DNA from: Clostridia bacterium
GTDB taxonomy: Bacteria; Bacillota_A; Clostridia; Peptostreptococcales; JAAYPU01
Length of the DNA: 5,541 bases
Assembly (NCBI GenBank): GCA_022360735.1
Contig: JAKSCF010000390.1
Span: forward strand, 1 to 5,541
Reading direction: 5' to 3'
The notes beneath the pieces were generated by a model. The model was not told the DNA's origin and did no database searches. It saw only the letters and a list, made by a program, of their open reading frames with translations. Shown one piece after another: positions 1 to 5,541 of the stretch. Both the position numbers and the translations under genes were made by a program. The first letter of the stretch is position 1. Each line of letters opens with the position of its first letter.

Positions 1-3000
1 ACTACATTATCTCCCCCAATGTTTGTGAAAATAAATTTAATTGTCGACTTGTATTCAGGATACTTCTTATAAAACCCATCTGCAATACTATTTCTAAAGT
101 TCTCAAAAGTACTACTTTGGGGGGTGACATCAAAGAGTAACGTTTTACCTTTCAATCCACTTGGCAATAAGTACGGTGCATTATCATCATATCCTCCTAT
201 AAAATAATATTTAGTTGTACCATGTTGAGAATAATTTAATGCTGGCGTTTGATAGTTGTTAATATATTCTCGCTTTTCTTTCTTAGAATAATTCATAACT
301 CTTTTACTGCCGCCAAATTGCTGACTATCAGGTGCCAAATCCATATCCATAGGCTTAGTTAATACAGGAATATTAACACTAAGTGTTGCAAGCCCACTCC
401 CCCAATGGGGCGTATTTATAGTAATAAGCTTATTAACATATGAACTGCCATTTAGATTCTCAATATAATATCTTGAAACTAAACCACCATTGCTATGACC
501 TATTAAATCCACTTTTAACGTTCCACCCTCAATATTTCTATTATTATAAGCTGATTTTGTCGGATATACTGCTTTGTTTTCTTTTAAGTTTTCTTCAATA
601 AACCATTTAAGAATGTCTGCATTTTTCCAGTTAAAATCAATATTGGGGTAGTTCAAAACAAATAGGTTAACATTTTTTTCATATCCTTCATTACCGACTT
701 CTGCTAATTGATATGCCAAATTGTGTGGTTCATTTTTTTTATCTCCGCCTGCAACTATTTCTTTTATATCATGTGCCTCTGACGTGTAGTAATTTACTGG
801 GGAAAAAATAGTTTCTCCGTCGTTATATCCATTTGTATTAGTTTCTGATCTATTTATATTGCCGTAAGAAGTAACATTATTTCGGATATATTGGTAATTA
901 AGCGAATTTCCTTTAAGCTTCGTATGCCCTTCCCCAATTATTTCAGTCTTAGCACCAAAAAGCTTATAACTATTGTCCGTCCTTCCATGCAATAGAATCA
1001 CAGGTGTCCTAAAAGCTACTTTAGGATTCAAATCATCCGCATCACCGTATCCATCTCCATCCGTATCACCTACCGCTGGATTGCTTTCATATTCATAAAC
1101 TTTTATAACCCCATAGTTTGTATCTGTTATCGCTCCATTACTTACTTTTATAATAATATCGTCTAAATCCAGTTCCTTTACAGGTGTAACGCTTTTCAAC
1201 TCCTGTATATCCGGAATCCCATCCTTATCCGTATCCGTAATTATATCACCTTGTGTCGGCTCTTTTTCTAACTTTACCGGTATGGGGATCGCTCCGTCCA
1301 AATATATCCATACTCCGTCTTCTACATCATCTACTATTTGATTGGCAACTGCCATAAGTTCATCTTTGAAATCACCATTAATATCTGCATATATACCACC
1401 AGTTTGACTAAATAAATCATTATATGTTGATTCTAACCAGGATGAAGTTACCACTGAAGTATTGATTTTTTGGTTTTTTAATAATTCTATTTCATACTCT
1501 AATGATGGTATCCCATATCTGTTATCAATTTTATAGCCTGCATCCGTAATGAGTATAAAAAACTTACCTGCATTTGATCGCATATCAAGCAAACGAGCGG
1601 TTTCCAGTGCATCAATAACACATTCCGGTTCATCACCGCCACCATAAACATCTAGTGTTTTGATTACATTTTTATATACTTCGACATCTGAAAACCAATT
1701 TTTAGTTCCATTTTTATATACTTTTGTAGAATCCATTCCATCTTCTACAATATCCTTATATTCAACAAGTGAAAGATACGGAGCAATACCTCTTTCTTTT
1801 AAATGGTCAACAAAAGCGGTTGTATTATCTATAACATTGTTAATTTCATCACCCATTGAGCCTGTGGTGTCCATTATGAATACAATATCGGCTTGTCCTG
1901 TTGCGCCTGCCATTACAGTCATTTTTGTTGTATCTGCAGATGCACTAACCGACTTATGGGTCGAATAAACTTCCGACATCACGGTGCTGTGTTTGGTACT
2001 AAATGTTGCTATAGCTTTATTTTGATCACTATTATTCTGCATTGATTGTATTTGTTGGGAAGTTAGTACTTTTTTATTCTCTTTTAATGCCATTTCCTCC
2101 ATTGCCATTGAGATTTCGGTAGTTGAATGAGTCATTTTTGTTGGTAATGAGAAACCTAGTTCATTAAATAATTCTTCAACATCAAGTACAAAATATATGC
2201 CTGGTGAATCAATTTGTGCGGAAAGCATTTTATTCTTTCTGTCATAGTCTGTATGATAATAAATTGTATTCCCTTTATCATCATATCTACATATTATTTT
2301 TTTGTTATATACTTCTTCTGCTACTGTTATGGCAGAATCTGATTCTATATCTCTATTCAAGGAAAATGTTATCTCCGCACTTTCAAATTCTGCTCCACTT
2401 ATTTTAATAGGTTTACCTATGATGGAACGACTCTCTCCAAATTCAATACCCATATATTCACTAATAGCTGCCGTATTATTTACATTACCAGTTACGGACA
2501 ATGTTAAGGAAGGTATCGCATCATTATCTTCTAATAAACTGTTTGCAATATTATCTTCACCCACCGTTTGCCGTACCTTTTCCTCAGAATCTAAAATCCC
2601 ATTTCCGTCTGTATCACTCTTAATAGGGCTGAATCCCAATATAATTTCGTCAGCATCTGATAGAGTATCACCGTCTGTGTCCACACATAGGGCATCTGTT
2701 TTATATGTATTTATTTCCTCTCCATCTTTTAAACCGTCATCATCCGTATCTTTAAGAAGTGGATGAGTACCCAAGTTGTATTCTGTTAAATTACTCAATC
2801 CATCATTGTCCGGGTCCTCGTCTGCATCAGATACCCCGTTATCGTCACTATCAGCTTTTGTCGGTGACATATTTATCATATAATATTCAAAACCATCCGG
2901 CAAACCATCTGAATCCGTATCTCTATTATTAATGTCTGAATTTAACTTTCTTTCCAAATCATCGCTTAGTCCATCTAAGTCACTATCATTTTCTATTATT

Positions 3001-4439
3001 CCGGACCCCATACTTGTAACCATATAATTGACTTGATTTGACTCTTTTGTTTGACCATTTTTTGATTTGGAAATTACTTTGTATGCATATGTTCCTGCTA
3101 TAGCTTCCTTATTTATTATTATGGGATTATTGACATCAATTGTTGATATTTCTTCAAAATCCTTATCATTATGTTTAACGTTCATTGTATATGTACTCGT
3201 GTTTTCAGTGTTTGTAACTTTAAACTCTAATACCCCATTATCATCGACAAGTTCTAAATTAGGTTTTTTATGTGTTGTCTTGGAAGACGATGAAGAGCTG
3301 CGCCTATATGTAGTCTTAAAATCACCGATATTTACTTCTTCTACACTACTTGTGGAAAATTTACCGGCGCTTTTCAATTTGCCGGAATATACATAAAATA
3401 TTTCATAGTCTCTGCCTTTAGGCAAAATGGCTTCAAATTCACCTTTATCATTCGTTTCTGTAGTAAAATAGGGATTAGTTTTTATGTATACAGATTTAGT
3501 CTTTACATTTTTGTTATTAGCATCCTTTAATGTACCAACTACCTTCTGACCCTCTTCTAGTCCTATTTTAACATACGATTTAAAATCATCTCTTATGTTT
3601 ATTTCACTTCTAAAAGAAACTTTATTGTTAATTGAAGCGATTATGTTATATACCCCTTCTTTAAGTGTAATATTATAATTACCTTGTTTATCAGTTTTTA
3701 CTTTTTTTATTTCTTTGTAACTATCTTTTTCGCTTATAATTATGTCTACATTTTCAAGCGGTGATTTTTGATAATATGCTTTCCCTATTATCCCGGTACT
3801 TCCTCCCACAATTTCTAATGCATTATTCAGCATTACGACTGTTTCAGCTCTTGTTAGATTTCCTAAAGGATTAAATGTACCATCCCCATTCCCCTTAACT
3901 ATGCTTAGTTCAGATAAGGCCGCAATACCATCTTTTGCATAATTTGATATGTCATCTTTATCACTATATTGGTTAAGTTCACCTTCCATAATGATATCAT
4001 TGATATTTAAATATCTACTGACAATTATGCTTGCATCTTGTCTTGTAATAAAGTCATTAGGTCTAAAAGAATTGTCATTATACCCACTAATAATTCCAAA
4101 CTTTGATGATAGCATAACAGATTTATAGTACCAATGTTTTTGTGTCACATCTACAAATTTTTTAGCAGTTGTTTCTGAATCCTCTAGCATAAAAACTCTG
4201 TCAAGTAAAGAAATAAACTCGGCACGTGTTATATTATTTGACGGAACAAATGTTCCATCCGGATATCCTTTTACATATTCTTTTTCTATCCAGTCCAAAA
4301 TCACAGTCTCTGCCCAGTGCCCCTTCACATCAGAAATTACATTACTATTTTCATTAGCAAATGTAAATGTGCTGAATTGTGTAAAAAACATTACAATAAT
4401 AACTATTAAAGCTGTTGATTTCTTAATTGCTTTGTCCAT
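1..4439 (-). CDS. SLH-anchored secreted multidomain protein with Ca-binding repeats, VWA domain and lipase-type alpha/beta-hydrolase domain (3' end outside window)
   Basis: Unbroken frame of 1479 codons, from ATG at 4439 off the left edge. The start is supported by AGGGGG five bases upstream and an immediate signal peptide (K-rich N-terminus, hydrophobic core about 9-27, TFA at 26-28 before NENS). Three SLH modules follow (about 34-212), with TRAE, TRQD and TRAE motifs at 71, 132 and 196; SLH modules normally bind pyruvylated cell-wall polymer. Two Cna-B-like modules (about 217-375, with TDKQGNY and TNDKGEF turns), a serine run (381-386) and a beta module (about 392-475) come next. Seven DxDxDG-type Ca motifs span 485-617. 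The VWA domain (about 850-1045) has D857-T-T-G-S861, GGGD936EPE and ITD966. Two more Ca motifs sit at 1069 and 1125. The hydrolase domain begins near 1142 with LLHG (H1151) and has nucleophile elbow GHS1316NGG and TPHWGS at 1343. Likely a surface lipase or esterase; the substrate is unknown. The catalytic acid and His were not located. Confidence 0.93.
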   Translation of the reverse strand, partial: MDKAIKKSTALIVIIVMFFTQFSTFTFANENSNVISDVKGHWAETVILDWIEKEYVKGYPDGTFVPSNNITRAEFISLLDRVFMLEDSETTAKKFVDVTQKHWYYKSVMLSSKFGIISGYNDNSFRPNDFITRQDASIIVSRYLNINDIIMEGELNQYSDKDDISNYAKDGIAALSELSIVKGNGDGTFNPLGNLTRAETVVMLNNALEIVGGSTGIIGKAYYQKSPLENVDIIISEKDSYKEIKKVKTDKQGNYNITLKEGVYNIIASINNKVSFRSEINIRDDFKSYVKIGLEEGQKVVGTLKDANNKNVKTKSVYIKTNPYFTTETNDKGEFEAILPKGRDYEIFYVYSGKLKSAGKFSTSSVEEVNIGDFKTTYRRSSSSSSKTTHKKPNLELVDDNGVLEFKVTNTENTSTYTMNVKHNDKDFEEISTIDVNNPIIINKEAIAGTYAYKVISKSKNGQTKESNQVNYMVTSMGSGIIENDSDLDGLSDDLERKLNSDINNRDTDSDGLPDGFEYYMINMSPTKADSDDNGVSDADEDPDNDGLSNLTEYNLGTHPLLKDTDDDGLKDGEEINTYKTDALCVDTDGDTLSDADEIILGFSPIKSDTDGNGILDSEEKVRQTVGEDNIANSLLEDNDAIPSLTLSVTGNVNNTAAISEYMGIEFGESRSIIGKPIKISGAEFESAEITFSLNRDIESDSAITVAEEVYNKKIICRYDDKGNTIYYHTDYDRKNKMLSAQIDSPGIYFVLDVEELFNELGFSLPTKMTHSTTEISMAMEEMALKENKKVLTSQQIQSMQNNSDQNKAIATFSTKHSTVMSEVYSTHKSVSASADTTKMTVMAGATGQADIVFIMDTTGSMGDEINNVIDNTTAFVDHLKERGIAPYLSLVEYKDIVEDGMDSTKVYKNGTKNWFSDVEVYKNVIKTLDVYGGGDEPECVIDALETARLLDMRSNAGKFFILITDAGYKIDNRYGIPSLEYEIELLKNQKINTSVVTSSWLESTYNDLFSQTGGIYADINGDFKDELMAVANQIVDDVEDGVWIYLDGAIPIPVKLEKEPTQGDIITDTDKDGIPDIQELKSVTPVKELDLDDIIIKVSNGAITDTNYGVIKVYEYESNPAVGDTDGDGYGDADDLNPKVAFRTPVILLHGRTDNSYKLFGAKTEIIGEGHTKLKGNSLNYQYIRNNVTSYGNINRSETNTNGYNDGETIFSPVNYYTSEAHDIKEIVAGGDKKNEPHNLAYQLAEVGNEGYEKNVNLFVLNYPNIDFNWKNADILKWFIEENLKENKAVYPTKSAYNNRNIEGGTLKVDLIGHSNGGLVSRYYIENLNGSSYVNKLITINTPHWGSGLATLSVNIPVLTKPMDMDLAPDSQQFGGSKRVMNYSKKEKREYINNYQTPALNYSQHGTTKYYFIGGYDDNAPYLLPSGLKGKTLLFDVTPQSSTFENFRNSIADGFYKKYPEYKSTIKFIFTNIGGDNV
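1036..1235 (-). repeat. Second pair of Ca-binding motifs between the VWA and hydrolase domains
   Basis: DTDKDGIPD at residues 1069-1077 and DTDGDGYGD at 1125-1133 are the same motif type as the seven-copy block. They are separated by a roughly 47-residue beta-rich piece (VTPVKELDLDDIIIKV onward). They form the hinge just before the hydrolase domain starts (TPVILLHG). The VWA domain is therefore bracketed by Ca-motif segments on both sides. Confidence 0.82.
2589..2987 (-). repeat. Seven tandem thrombospondin-type-3-like Ca-binding motifs inside the SLH-VWA-lipase gene
   Basis: Residues 485-617 hold seven acidic nonapeptides: DSDLDGLSD, DTDSDGLPD, DSDDNGVSD, DPDNDGLSN, DTDDDGLKD, DTDGDTLSD and DTDGNGILD. 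They are separated by short stretches, several with an E-x-x-L/T-x pattern. Motifs of this type coordinate calcium in thrombospondin-type-3 and OmpA-like linkers, so this stretch is probably a Ca-stiffened spacer between the wall-anchoring half and the VWA domain. The sixth motif has T in place of the usual G. Confidence 0.88.
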
Positions 4440-4444
4440 ATTAG

Positions 4445-4450
4445 CCCCCT
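4445..4450 (-). promoter_or_regulatory. Ribosome binding site of the SLH-VWA-lipase gene
   Basis: AGGGGG reads on the minus strand, followed by the five-base spacer CTAAT and then ATG at 4439. The site fixes the start codon; no better upstream in-frame start precedes the signal peptide. Confidence 0.8.
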
Positions 4451-4456
4451 ATTACA

Positions 4457-4464
4457 TTGTCAAA
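4457..4464 (+). promoter_or_regulatory. Possible third Spo0A-type box in the leader
   Basis: TTGTCAAA matches the TTGTCRAA form of the 0A-box consensus. It lies about 20-27 bases downstream of the inferred transcript start. A site here could damp expression at high Spo0A~P. A single 8-base match in AT-rich DNA may also be chance. Confidence 0.35.
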
Positions 4465-4490
4465 TTTTTTATTTTTTATAAAACTCATTC

Positions 4491-4499
4491 ATTATACCA
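4491..4499 (-). promoter_or_regulatory. Extended -10 promoter of the SLH-VWA-lipase gene
   Basis: TGgTATAAT on the minus strand is a perfect -10 with the TG extension. The expected transcript start is near 4484, leaving a leader of about 45 bases. The hexamer 17 bases upstream (4514-4519, ATATAG) is a poor -35, which fits a promoter that needs an activator. The Spo0A-like boxes lie at exactly that position. Confidence 0.7.
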
Positions 4500-4518
4500 C
4501 ACTCGTCTCACTTCTATA

Positions 4519-4535
4519 TGTCGAACCATGTCGAA
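4519..4535 (+). promoter_or_regulatory. Tandem Spo0A-type boxes (TGTCGAA x2, 10-bp period)
   Basis: Two identical TGTCGAA heptamers lie at 4519-4525 and 4529-4535, head to tail and one helical turn apart. TGTCGAA is the core 0A-box recognised by the sporulation regulator Spo0A, and a tandem 10-bp arrangement is how the Spo0A DNA-binding domain is known to bind at abrB. Relative to the inferred start near 4484 they cover about -35 to -51, overlapping the missing -35. This favours activation over repression. Binding itself is inferred. Confidence 0.68.
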
Positions 4536-4604: not shown

Positions 4605-4724
4605 TTTGTGGAGCGCCTAAACACAGGCTATATGGAATTGGCCGAAACAGAAGCCGCGAGGGGCCGTCTCTCAGAAAACTTACCTCAATTGTATAGCCAA
4701 ACAGGGGACGGTTCTTCGTTCTAG
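4605..4724 (+). pseudogene. Coding-like remnant ending inside the palindrome; possible antitoxin-tail fragment
   Basis: The plus frame reads FVERLNTGYMELAETEAARG and continues to SQTGDGSSF, stopping at TAG 4722-4724 in the centre of the palindrome. This stretch is clearly richer in G+C than the AT-rich DNA before it and has the composition of a charged helical protein end. Upstream the same frame is low-complexity and unconvincing, and no ribosome site precedes ATG 4632, so it looks like a fragment rather than a working gene. The RLNTGYMELAE portion recalls the C-terminal helix of Firmicute MazE/EndoAI-type ribbon-helix-helix antitoxins (RRGYMEMAK in EndoAI, from memory). That link is weak, and no DNA-binding half or toxin gene is present. 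Confidence 0.3.
4626..4698. repeat. Imperfect inverted repeat (GGCTATA / TATAGCC) beside the first palindrome
   Basis: GGCTATA at 4626-4632 is inverted at 4692-4698. Just inside, AATTG (4636-4640) pairs with CAATT (4686-4690), giving 12 paired bases with a small internal loop around a roughly 45-base interior. The right arm overlaps the first three bases of the 54-bp palindrome. It could be an end of a small element or a folded RNA, or a coincidence. Confidence 0.4.
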
Positions 4725-4749
4725 AACGAAGAATGGTCCCCTGTTTGGC
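4696..4749. repeat. 54-bp palindromic repeat, copy 1 (REP/MITE-like)
   Basis: Two 26-base arms meet at a central TA. The left arm begins GCCAAACAGGGGACGG and the right arm ends GGTCCCCTGTTTGGC. The arms match at 24 of 26 positions; the only faults are the GG/TG bases next to GGGGAC. The core TTCTAGAA is perfectly self-complementary. There is no U-tract on either side, so a simple intrinsic terminator is unlikely, although the hairpin would be very stable in RNA. Palindromes with a CAGGGGACGGTTCTT-type core recur in many Clostridia genomes, some near IS200/RAYT-type transposases; this is recollection, not a search result. Confidence 0.88.
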
Positions 4750-4800
4750 CTGGACTACTATACAAATTTTAGACCGAGCGTGTGATAAACAACTCTTTTC

Positions 4801-5004
4801 TTACTTATTTTTTTTAATAGACCTTATAATTCTCAAAATAAATAATGTTAAAAACGCTAAAATTGTTGATATTCCTACACATGCACTTTTATCTACTTCA
4901 TTCAGATATTCTGGTAAAAAAATAGTGCCAAATGTTAATACTAATAATGCTATCAAAACTTCCCACCATTTAGCGGTCGTTTTTGACTTTAAAATATTCT
5001 TCAT
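4801..5004 (-). CDS. Small two-helix membrane protein, unknown function (67 aa)
   Basis: ATG at 5004 to TAA at 4801. A GGAGG lies at 5017-5021, twelve bases from the ATG, which is long but usable; no other in-frame start lies between them. The protein has a lysine-rich N-terminus (residues 2-12), a first membrane helix at about 14-31 (WEVLIALLVLTFGTIF) and a short acidic loop (PEYLNEVDK). A second helix at about 41-60 (CVGISTILAFLTLFILRII) leads to a basic tail (RSIKKNK). By the positive-inside rule this is a hairpin with both ends in the cytoplasm. I do not recognise the family. It sits alone, bracketed by the two palindrome copies, and shares its strand with the SLH gene but is separated from it by about 360 bases and that gene's own promoter. 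No toxin partner or antisense RNA is evident. Confidence 0.65.
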   Translation of the reverse strand: MKNILKSKTTAKWWEVLIALLVLTFGTIFLPEYLNEVDKSACVGISTILAFLTLFILRIIRSIKKNK

Positions 5005-5343: not shown

Positions 5344-5541
5344 CTATCGAATAACTATAGTGCCATGGCTTAACGAGCCAAGCAGGGGGCGGTCCTTCGT
5401 TCTAGAATGAAGAACCCTCCCCTGTTTGGCCTTTGAAATAAACCAATCTAAGTTCTCTTGTAAAGGCTCTATCCTGCTTGGCATCTCTTCTAACGATTGA
5501 TAAATGAATGGGCCCATTTCTCGCCGCTTTACCCCATATGA
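5344..5541 (-). CDS. 3' part of an unrecognised gene whose frame runs through palindrome copy 2
   Basis: Open from the right edge, 65 codons to TAG at 5344-5346. The first 40 residues read like real protein: they begin SYGVKRREMGPFIYQ, include EEMPSRIEPLQENLDWF, and end ISKAKQ. From residue 38 the frame is the palindrome itself (AKQGRVLHSRTKDRPLLGS), and the last ten codons are AT-rich flank. Either the repeat inserted near the end of a gene and supplied a new C-terminus, or this is a decayed remnant. No family is recognised from the visible part. The start and most of the gene lie outside the window. Confidence 0.4.
   Translation of the reverse strand, partial: SYGVKRREMGPFIYQSLEEMPSRIEPLQENLDWFISKAKQGRVLHSRTKDRPLLGSLSHGTIVIR
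5377..5430. repeat. 54-bp palindromic repeat, copy 2 (REP/MITE-like)
   Basis: Same length, same TA centre and same GCC...GGC ends as copy 1, with 47 of 54 bases identical, and spaced 681 bases from it start to start. It is less symmetrical: the two arms differ at five positions, three of which would still pair as G-U in RNA (positions 6, 13 and 24 of the left arm). Both copies are followed on the right by CT after GGC. The right flank is coding-like on the minus strand. Confidence 0.85.

Follow-up and report, generated by a model that had tools for sequence, protein, structure and literature searches.

A putative Spo0A-activated promoter of the spoIIG type ahead of a predicted surface-anchored lipase gene in a Clostridia bacterium

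Introduction

The spoIIG and spoIIE promoters of Bacillus subtilis possess displaced -35 elements, at 22 and 21 bp, respectively. According to the portions of PMC12090719 that were available, both are sigma-A-dependent and belong to the Spo0A regulon, and at spoIIG, Spo0A~P acts after formation of the closed complex; the reference list of that paper also includes work on the contact between Spo0A and sigma. TGTCGAA, the 0A box, is described in the accessible text of PMC3485338 as the core motif that matters for Spo0A binding in C. difficile. Moreover, Spo0A can activate or repress, and the position of the box matters, as stated in the sections of PMC4147580 and PMC4168254 that were seen.

The candidate promoter described here would be of this known kind and stands ahead of an unusual gene. 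It was found in a 5541-bp stretch of DNA (33% GC) from a Clostridia bacterium, hereafter referred to as the window, which carries one long gene.

The Gene and Its Product

The coding features of the window are as follows.

3..4439, minus strand: gene for the SLH-VWA-lipase, truncated at the edge of the window after 1479 codons
1446..1889, minus strand: residues 851-998, forming the VWA domain, for which both PF25106 and PF00092 scored above cut-off
492..494, minus strand: encodes the candidate nucleophile, Ser1316 of GHSNG (residues 1314-1318), a position occupied by Ser in 15 of the 16 rows of the alignment

A full-length protein of 1540 aa (P0001) is 99% identical to the window protein, which is without the last 61 residues. 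The N-terminus is hydrophobic by eye, predicting an export signal, and is accompanied by three SLH stretches (PF00395, 134.5 bits) and by a VWA domain containing DTTGSMG, presumably its metal-site motif. An alpha/beta-hydrolase was matched by both PF02089 (29.6, cut-off 26.8) and PF07819 (27.9, cut-off 24.3), while bacterial TSP3 repeats in the window protein fell below the Pfam cut-off. SLH, VWA and alpha/beta-hydrolase all scored above their curated Pfam cut-offs; a first-pass annotation of this DNA had called the gene an "S-layer VWA-lipase" gene.

In an alignment of 16 rows (A1, comprising the window protein and P0001-P0015), the putative acid, Asp1477, is found in all 16 rows, and the putative His1521, which lies outside the window among the missing 61 residues, in all 14 of the 16 rows that are ungapped there. 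The best sequence match of the hydrolase part to solved lipases had an E value of 2.2e-6 over 54 residues. The family match, together with a candidate Ser-Asp-His triad drawn from conservation, would place this part among the alpha/beta-hydrolase lipases, and the product as a whole is predicted to be exported and anchored to the cell surface through SLH, carrying a VWA and a lipase/esterase-like domain.

Upstream of the gene, the window also contains two near-palindromic repeats of 57 nt, at 4695-4751 and 5376-5432, that are 88% identical, lie 681 bp apart, and are presumably REP- or MITE-like. Between them is a minus-strand ORF (4801-5004) encoding a membrane-like product of 67 aa, whose sole match was a 100% identical protein. 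An Rfam scan of the window returned nothing at the gathering score.

The Promoter and Its Tandem 0A Boxes

The features of the upstream region, and one further box within the gene, are listed below.

4529..4535, plus strand: distal 0A box, an exact TGTCGAA that reads TTCGACA on the gene strand and spans about -51 to -45 relative to the inferred start, seen in the sequence
4519..4525, plus strand: proximal 0A box, likewise an exact TGTCGAA, spanning about -41 to -35, seen in the sequence
4519..4524, minus strand: displaced -35-like TCGACA, 5 of 6 to TTGACA, 22 bp from the -10 and inside the proximal box
4499-4491, minus strand: extended -10, TGG-TATAAT (TGGTATAAT), with the hexamer at 4496-4491
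4484, minus strand: inferred transcription start, 7 nt past the -10 hexamer and placed from the -10 position
4458..4464, plus strand: 0A-like TGTCAAA with one mismatch, in the leader, probably not significant
4445..4450, minus strand: ribosome-binding site AGGGGG, 5 nt upstream of the ATG, seen in the sequence
1680-1686, minus strand: third exact TGTCGAA, inside coding sequence, with 0.39 exact matches expected per window

The two upstream boxes share one orientation, with a start-to-start distance of 10 bp and a gap of 3 bp, and since the gene is on the minus strand, they read TTCGACA-TGG-TTCGACA on its sense strand. They were reported in the first-pass annotation as two exact, head-to-tail TGTCGAA boxes at 10 bp, and this was confirmed. 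The true repeat length is 9 bp (ATGTCGAAC), giving three overlapping heptamer pairs, and no other identical heptamers stand 10 bp apart anywhere in the window. Exact TGTCGAA occurs three times in all.

It had also been argued that two identical heptamers at one helical turn are unlikely by chance. That argument is weak by itself, as an identical heptamer pair of any kind at 10 bp arose in 4.2% of simulated 361-bp upstream regions. The rarity comes from the heptamer being the 0A box, known beforehand, together with its distance to the -10. Under a first-order Markov model of the window, exact tandem 0A pairs in either orientation are expected 1.4e-5 times per window, and such a pair occurred in none of 4000 simulated windows; a 0A pair followed by TATAAT at 21 or 22 bp is expected 1.5e-9 times per 361-bp upstream region. 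The additional match claimed for the leader is present as TGTCAAA but uninformative: matches with at most one mismatch are common in the window (19, versus a shuffle mean of 12.3, with 19 reached in 9 of 200 shuffles), and it therefore carries no weight.

The LexA motif is CGAAC-N4-GTTCG. A LexA site at the box pair was considered and dropped, as that motif is inverted and the repeat here is direct.

The core of the promoter likewise bore out the earlier description of an extended -10 whose own -35 is poor. At spacers of 16, 17 and 18 bp from TATAAT, the hexamers agree with TTGACA at 3, 1 and 2 of 6 positions, respectively. The leader from the inferred start to the ATG is 45 nt long. A second perfect TATAAT lies further upstream on the gene strand, at 4557-4552, without TGn and with a best -35 of 3 of 6. 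A generic promoter scan of the window did not list the promoter at 4496-4491. The region thus combines the marks of the spoIIG type: head-to-tail boxes with a 10-bp period, and a sigma-A -10 that lies 21-22 bp from the proximal box and is without a normally spaced -35. The observation is stronger than was first claimed; the first-pass annotation did not mention what speaks most for it, namely the 22 bp between the proximal box and the -10.

Spacing at Known Spo0A-Class Genes

The spacing was calibrated on the spoIIGA loci of one family, that of Bacillus sp. FJAT-27251 (genome G009, reached via locus L044; hereafter the Bacillus family). A SpoIIGA match was present in all 61 genomes of this family, and 30 loci were examined using the motif nnnnACA-N3-nnTGACA-[15 to 28]-TATACT, which was picked after the regions had been viewed, with the spacing left free. 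The motif was present at 21 of the 30 loci, with a spacer of 22 bp in 17, 21 bp in four, and no other value within 15-28, and was absent from the remaining nine; decoys, taken at these loci from within the genes and from the opposite strand, gave 0 matches. A scan for TTCGACA/TTTGACA matched only 2 of the 30 (spacers 21 and 22), because the boxes at these loci are weak.

The window resembles spoIIGA of the Bacillus family in having two box-like elements of the same orientation 10 bp apart, and in the distance from the proximal TGACA end to the -10, which is 22 bp at 17 of 30 and 21 bp at 4 of 30 loci. It differs in that both of its boxes are exact, whereas those of spoIIGA are weak (nnnnACA-N3-nnTGACA), and in that its -10 is TATAAT with TGn rather than TATACT. 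Moreover, unlike spoIIGA, the window gene is not among the known sporulation genes.

A wider sample was drawn from the phylum of genome G010, accessed via the Mobilisporobacter locus L050. Of 149 genomes from this phylum, 133 had a SpoIIGA match and 136 a match to the SpoIIE model, and 30 loci of each were taken. A single-box test (a box of at least 6/7 plus a -10 of at least 5/6, at spacers 10-35) over these 60 upstream regions found a spacer of 21 five times and of 29 once, with a shuffle mean of 0.09 at 21; most of the 60 regions gave no match in this test. A pair scan of the same phylum-wide set matched 5 of 30 spoIIGA loci (spacers 21, 21, 21, 23 and 28) and 1 of 30 spoIIE loci (21). The choice of start differed between the two scans, and L126 and L146, with spacer 21 in the pair scan, are outside the single-box counts. 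In this sample, spoIIE is like the window in possessing a box and TATAAT at a displaced spacing and unlike it in that the spacer, in the 4 of 30 loci found, was 21, with 26 of 30 not found by the single-box test. Known Spo0A-class genes thus gave distances of 21 and 22 bp, and the distance in the window is 22. It counts against the window that the phylum-wide test, and the phage contigs described below, showed 21 and not 22.

Relatives and Conservation

Full-length relatives of the protein look rare. One is P0002 of Paenibacillus tritici, which is 48% identical over residues 8-1479 and, like the window protein, possesses SLH, VWA and PF02089/PF07819 matches. Unlike the window gene, it has no 0A pair in the 450 bp upstream, where the sole box of at least 6/7 is single and lies about 300 bp from the gene; the P. 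tritici genome does have a Spo0A_C match. The comparison of orthologues for conserved TGTCGAA spacing, suggested in the first-pass annotation as a check, was thus negative in P. tritici, the one full-length orthologue that was read.

Searches of other genomes scored only the top few candidate places in each, so that misses are possible. With the top 2 places scored across 197 genomes of the P. tritici family and the top 5 across 100 genomes of its genus, a single genome was matched each time, that of P. tritici itself; with the top 2 places, 3 of 398 genomes from the phylum of G010 were matched, in the SLH part only. A first scan of genome contigs yielded no close relatives, and metagenome proteins of similar build gave 90 matches. 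Among distant domain relatives, the best 80 of 424 had no tandem pair above 12/14 upstream, with starts picked by a simple RBS rule, three loci with under 150 bp of upstream sequence, and some regions possibly wrong; by tblastn, the VWA part was covered by 19 of these 80 and the hydrolase by none (at most 4 residues). Plasmids gave no match to the window DNA and 12 weak protein matches, with coverage of 34% or less. As far as seen, the Spo0A wiring, if real, is lineage-specific.

Proposed Spo0A Control and Its Alternatives

The favoured reading, to which a probability of roughly 0.77 is assigned, takes 4491-4535 as a spoIIG-type promoter that is used by sigma-A and switched on by Spo0A~P. Direct control of this kind, judged from sequence, appears well supported by the architecture, in which exact tandem boxes occupy the -35 zone at the distance measured at spoIIGA. 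The suggestion of Spo0A control made in the first-pass annotation accordingly gains from the promoter and its 22 bp, as at spoIIGA, and loses from the lack of a pair in P. tritici.

Mechanistically, two Spo0A~P molecules would bind the head-to-tail boxes (about -51 to -35) from the same side of the helix, immediately upstream of RNA polymerase. The extended -10 is good, a -35 at the normal distance is missing, and the TTGACA-like end of the proximal box sits 22 bp off, such that contact between Spo0A~P and sigma-A may be what makes the promoter work. The gene would then be silent during growth and come on as Spo0A~P rises, in stationary phase or at entry into sporulation. Both boxes are exact and those of spoIIG are weak; the response may therefore occur at a lower level of Spo0A~P than that of spoIIG, making it early and sensitive.

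Much the same sites could conceivably serve repression, with transcription starting from the upstream TATAAT and Spo0A~P blocking it from the boxes just downstream. That -10 hexamer is perfect, and the position-dependent activation or repression by Spo0A described in the consulted parts of PMC4147580 and PMC4168254 would accommodate such an arrangement. Against it, the hexamer at 4557-4552 is without TGn and its best -35 reaches 3 of 6, whereas the downstream -10 is extended and at activator spacing, and repression is accordingly thought quite improbable. An unlikely but somewhat less strained alternative is that another response regulator, or a repressor, reads TTCGACA with a 10-bp period for purposes unrelated to sporulation. 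In its favour, response regulators commonly use direct repeats placed in the -35 zone. Both copies are nonetheless identical to the 0A core, as given in the available text of PMC3485338, and the 22-bp phasing is of the spoIIG type.

The repeat could also be a product of chance without function, or a decayed site. The 4.2% of simulated upstream regions with some identical heptamer pair at 10 bp, and the absence of the boxes from the one full-length orthologue read, that of P. tritici, lean in this direction; the expectations for the 0A pair (1.4e-5 per window) and for the pair with TATAAT at 21 or 22 bp (1.5e-9 per upstream region) weigh so heavily the other way that chance or decay seems very improbable.

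Exact Pairs in Other Genomes

Across the 398 phylum genomes, TATAAT stood 10-36 bp downstream of an exact pair at 11 sites in 8 genomes, and the reversed control gave 0. The spacers of these sites were 35 (seven sites), 22 (two), 19 (one) and 36 (one), the seven at 35 counting against the favoured reading. A Spo0A_C match was present in all 8 of the genomes, but also in 12 of 15 others; it adds little, as most of the genomes examined have Spo0A_C. A looser pair pattern, applied to 246 genomes of the order of G010, performed at chance level (3 genomes versus 2 control matches).

The geometry at L113 and at L116/L321 is identical to that of the window. At L116 and L321, the exact pair, with a spacer of 22, lies ahead of a nuclease-like ATP-binding gene (named by eye), and the L116 site was kept in a second genome (L321) of the same family, in which 13 genomes were searched. 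The seven sites with TATAAT 35 bp downstream of an exact 0A pair (L108-L112, L114 and L115) are spread over 6 genomes, and at five of them the next ORF, picked by rule, encodes the same secreted-looking protein (ASSPTNYKTMYEKLLKDYNSLK).

Viral Contigs and Spo0E-like Genes

Viral sequences provided another setting for the pair. Twenty viral contigs (L081-L100), several of them near copies of one another, carry TTCGACA-N3-TTCGACA with TATAAT, and in a search of spacers 20-24, 19 of the 20 had 21 and one had 24. These promoters are like that of the window in their exact pair and TATAAT, usually near a short gene, and unlike it in their spacer, which is 22 in the window. When the -10 was not required, at least 120 viral stretches were matched, and among the 121 pairs listed, a spacer of 21 occurred four times and 22 once; larger counts among the matches listed fell at 15 (7) and 39 (8), as well as at 16 and 32 for the opposite direction. 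The pair alone therefore does not predict the distance to the -10.

The next ORF possesses an SQ-LD motif in 7 of the 20 viral contigs, representing six distinct sequences (L081 and L089 are alike). Four of the six were above the Pfam SpoOE-like cut-off and two just under it (22.7 and 21.6, versus 23). Five other viral next ORFs tested against Pfam gave none above cut-off. Phage homologues of spo0E have already been published, as the accessible part of PMC10075063 indicates, and the portions of the literature covered by a search contained no report of 0A boxes ahead of them. A phage Spo0E under a Spo0A promoter would form a feedback loop.

It is tempting, if rather speculative, to suggest that the consensus tandem-0A promoter, with exact boxes, 21-22 bp and a strong -10, is a portable device through which entry of the host into sporulation is sensed by accessory genes and phages as well as by the sporulation programme. 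In the window, the gene so equipped would be that of a large surface lipase; in phages, it would be Spo0E-like genes, possibly lowering Spo0A~P and thereby feeding back on sporulation.

Biological Significance

A full-text literature search for Spo0A together with SLH and lipase found no such gene in the parts of the texts covered. An SLH-tethered hydrolase could target lipids of the medium, neighbours, or the cell's own envelope, and the roles proposed at the outset, namely wall remodelling, lipid scavenging and mother-cell lysis, are guesses. The combination of the pair with a phased -10 offers a low-background pattern with which candidates for direct control by Spo0A could be sought in uncultured bacteria and in phages. 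If the favoured reading is true, a sporadic, surface-anchored, lipase-like protein would be deployed at commitment to stationary phase or sporulation, which would point to lipid, envelope or neighbour-directed work at that moment.
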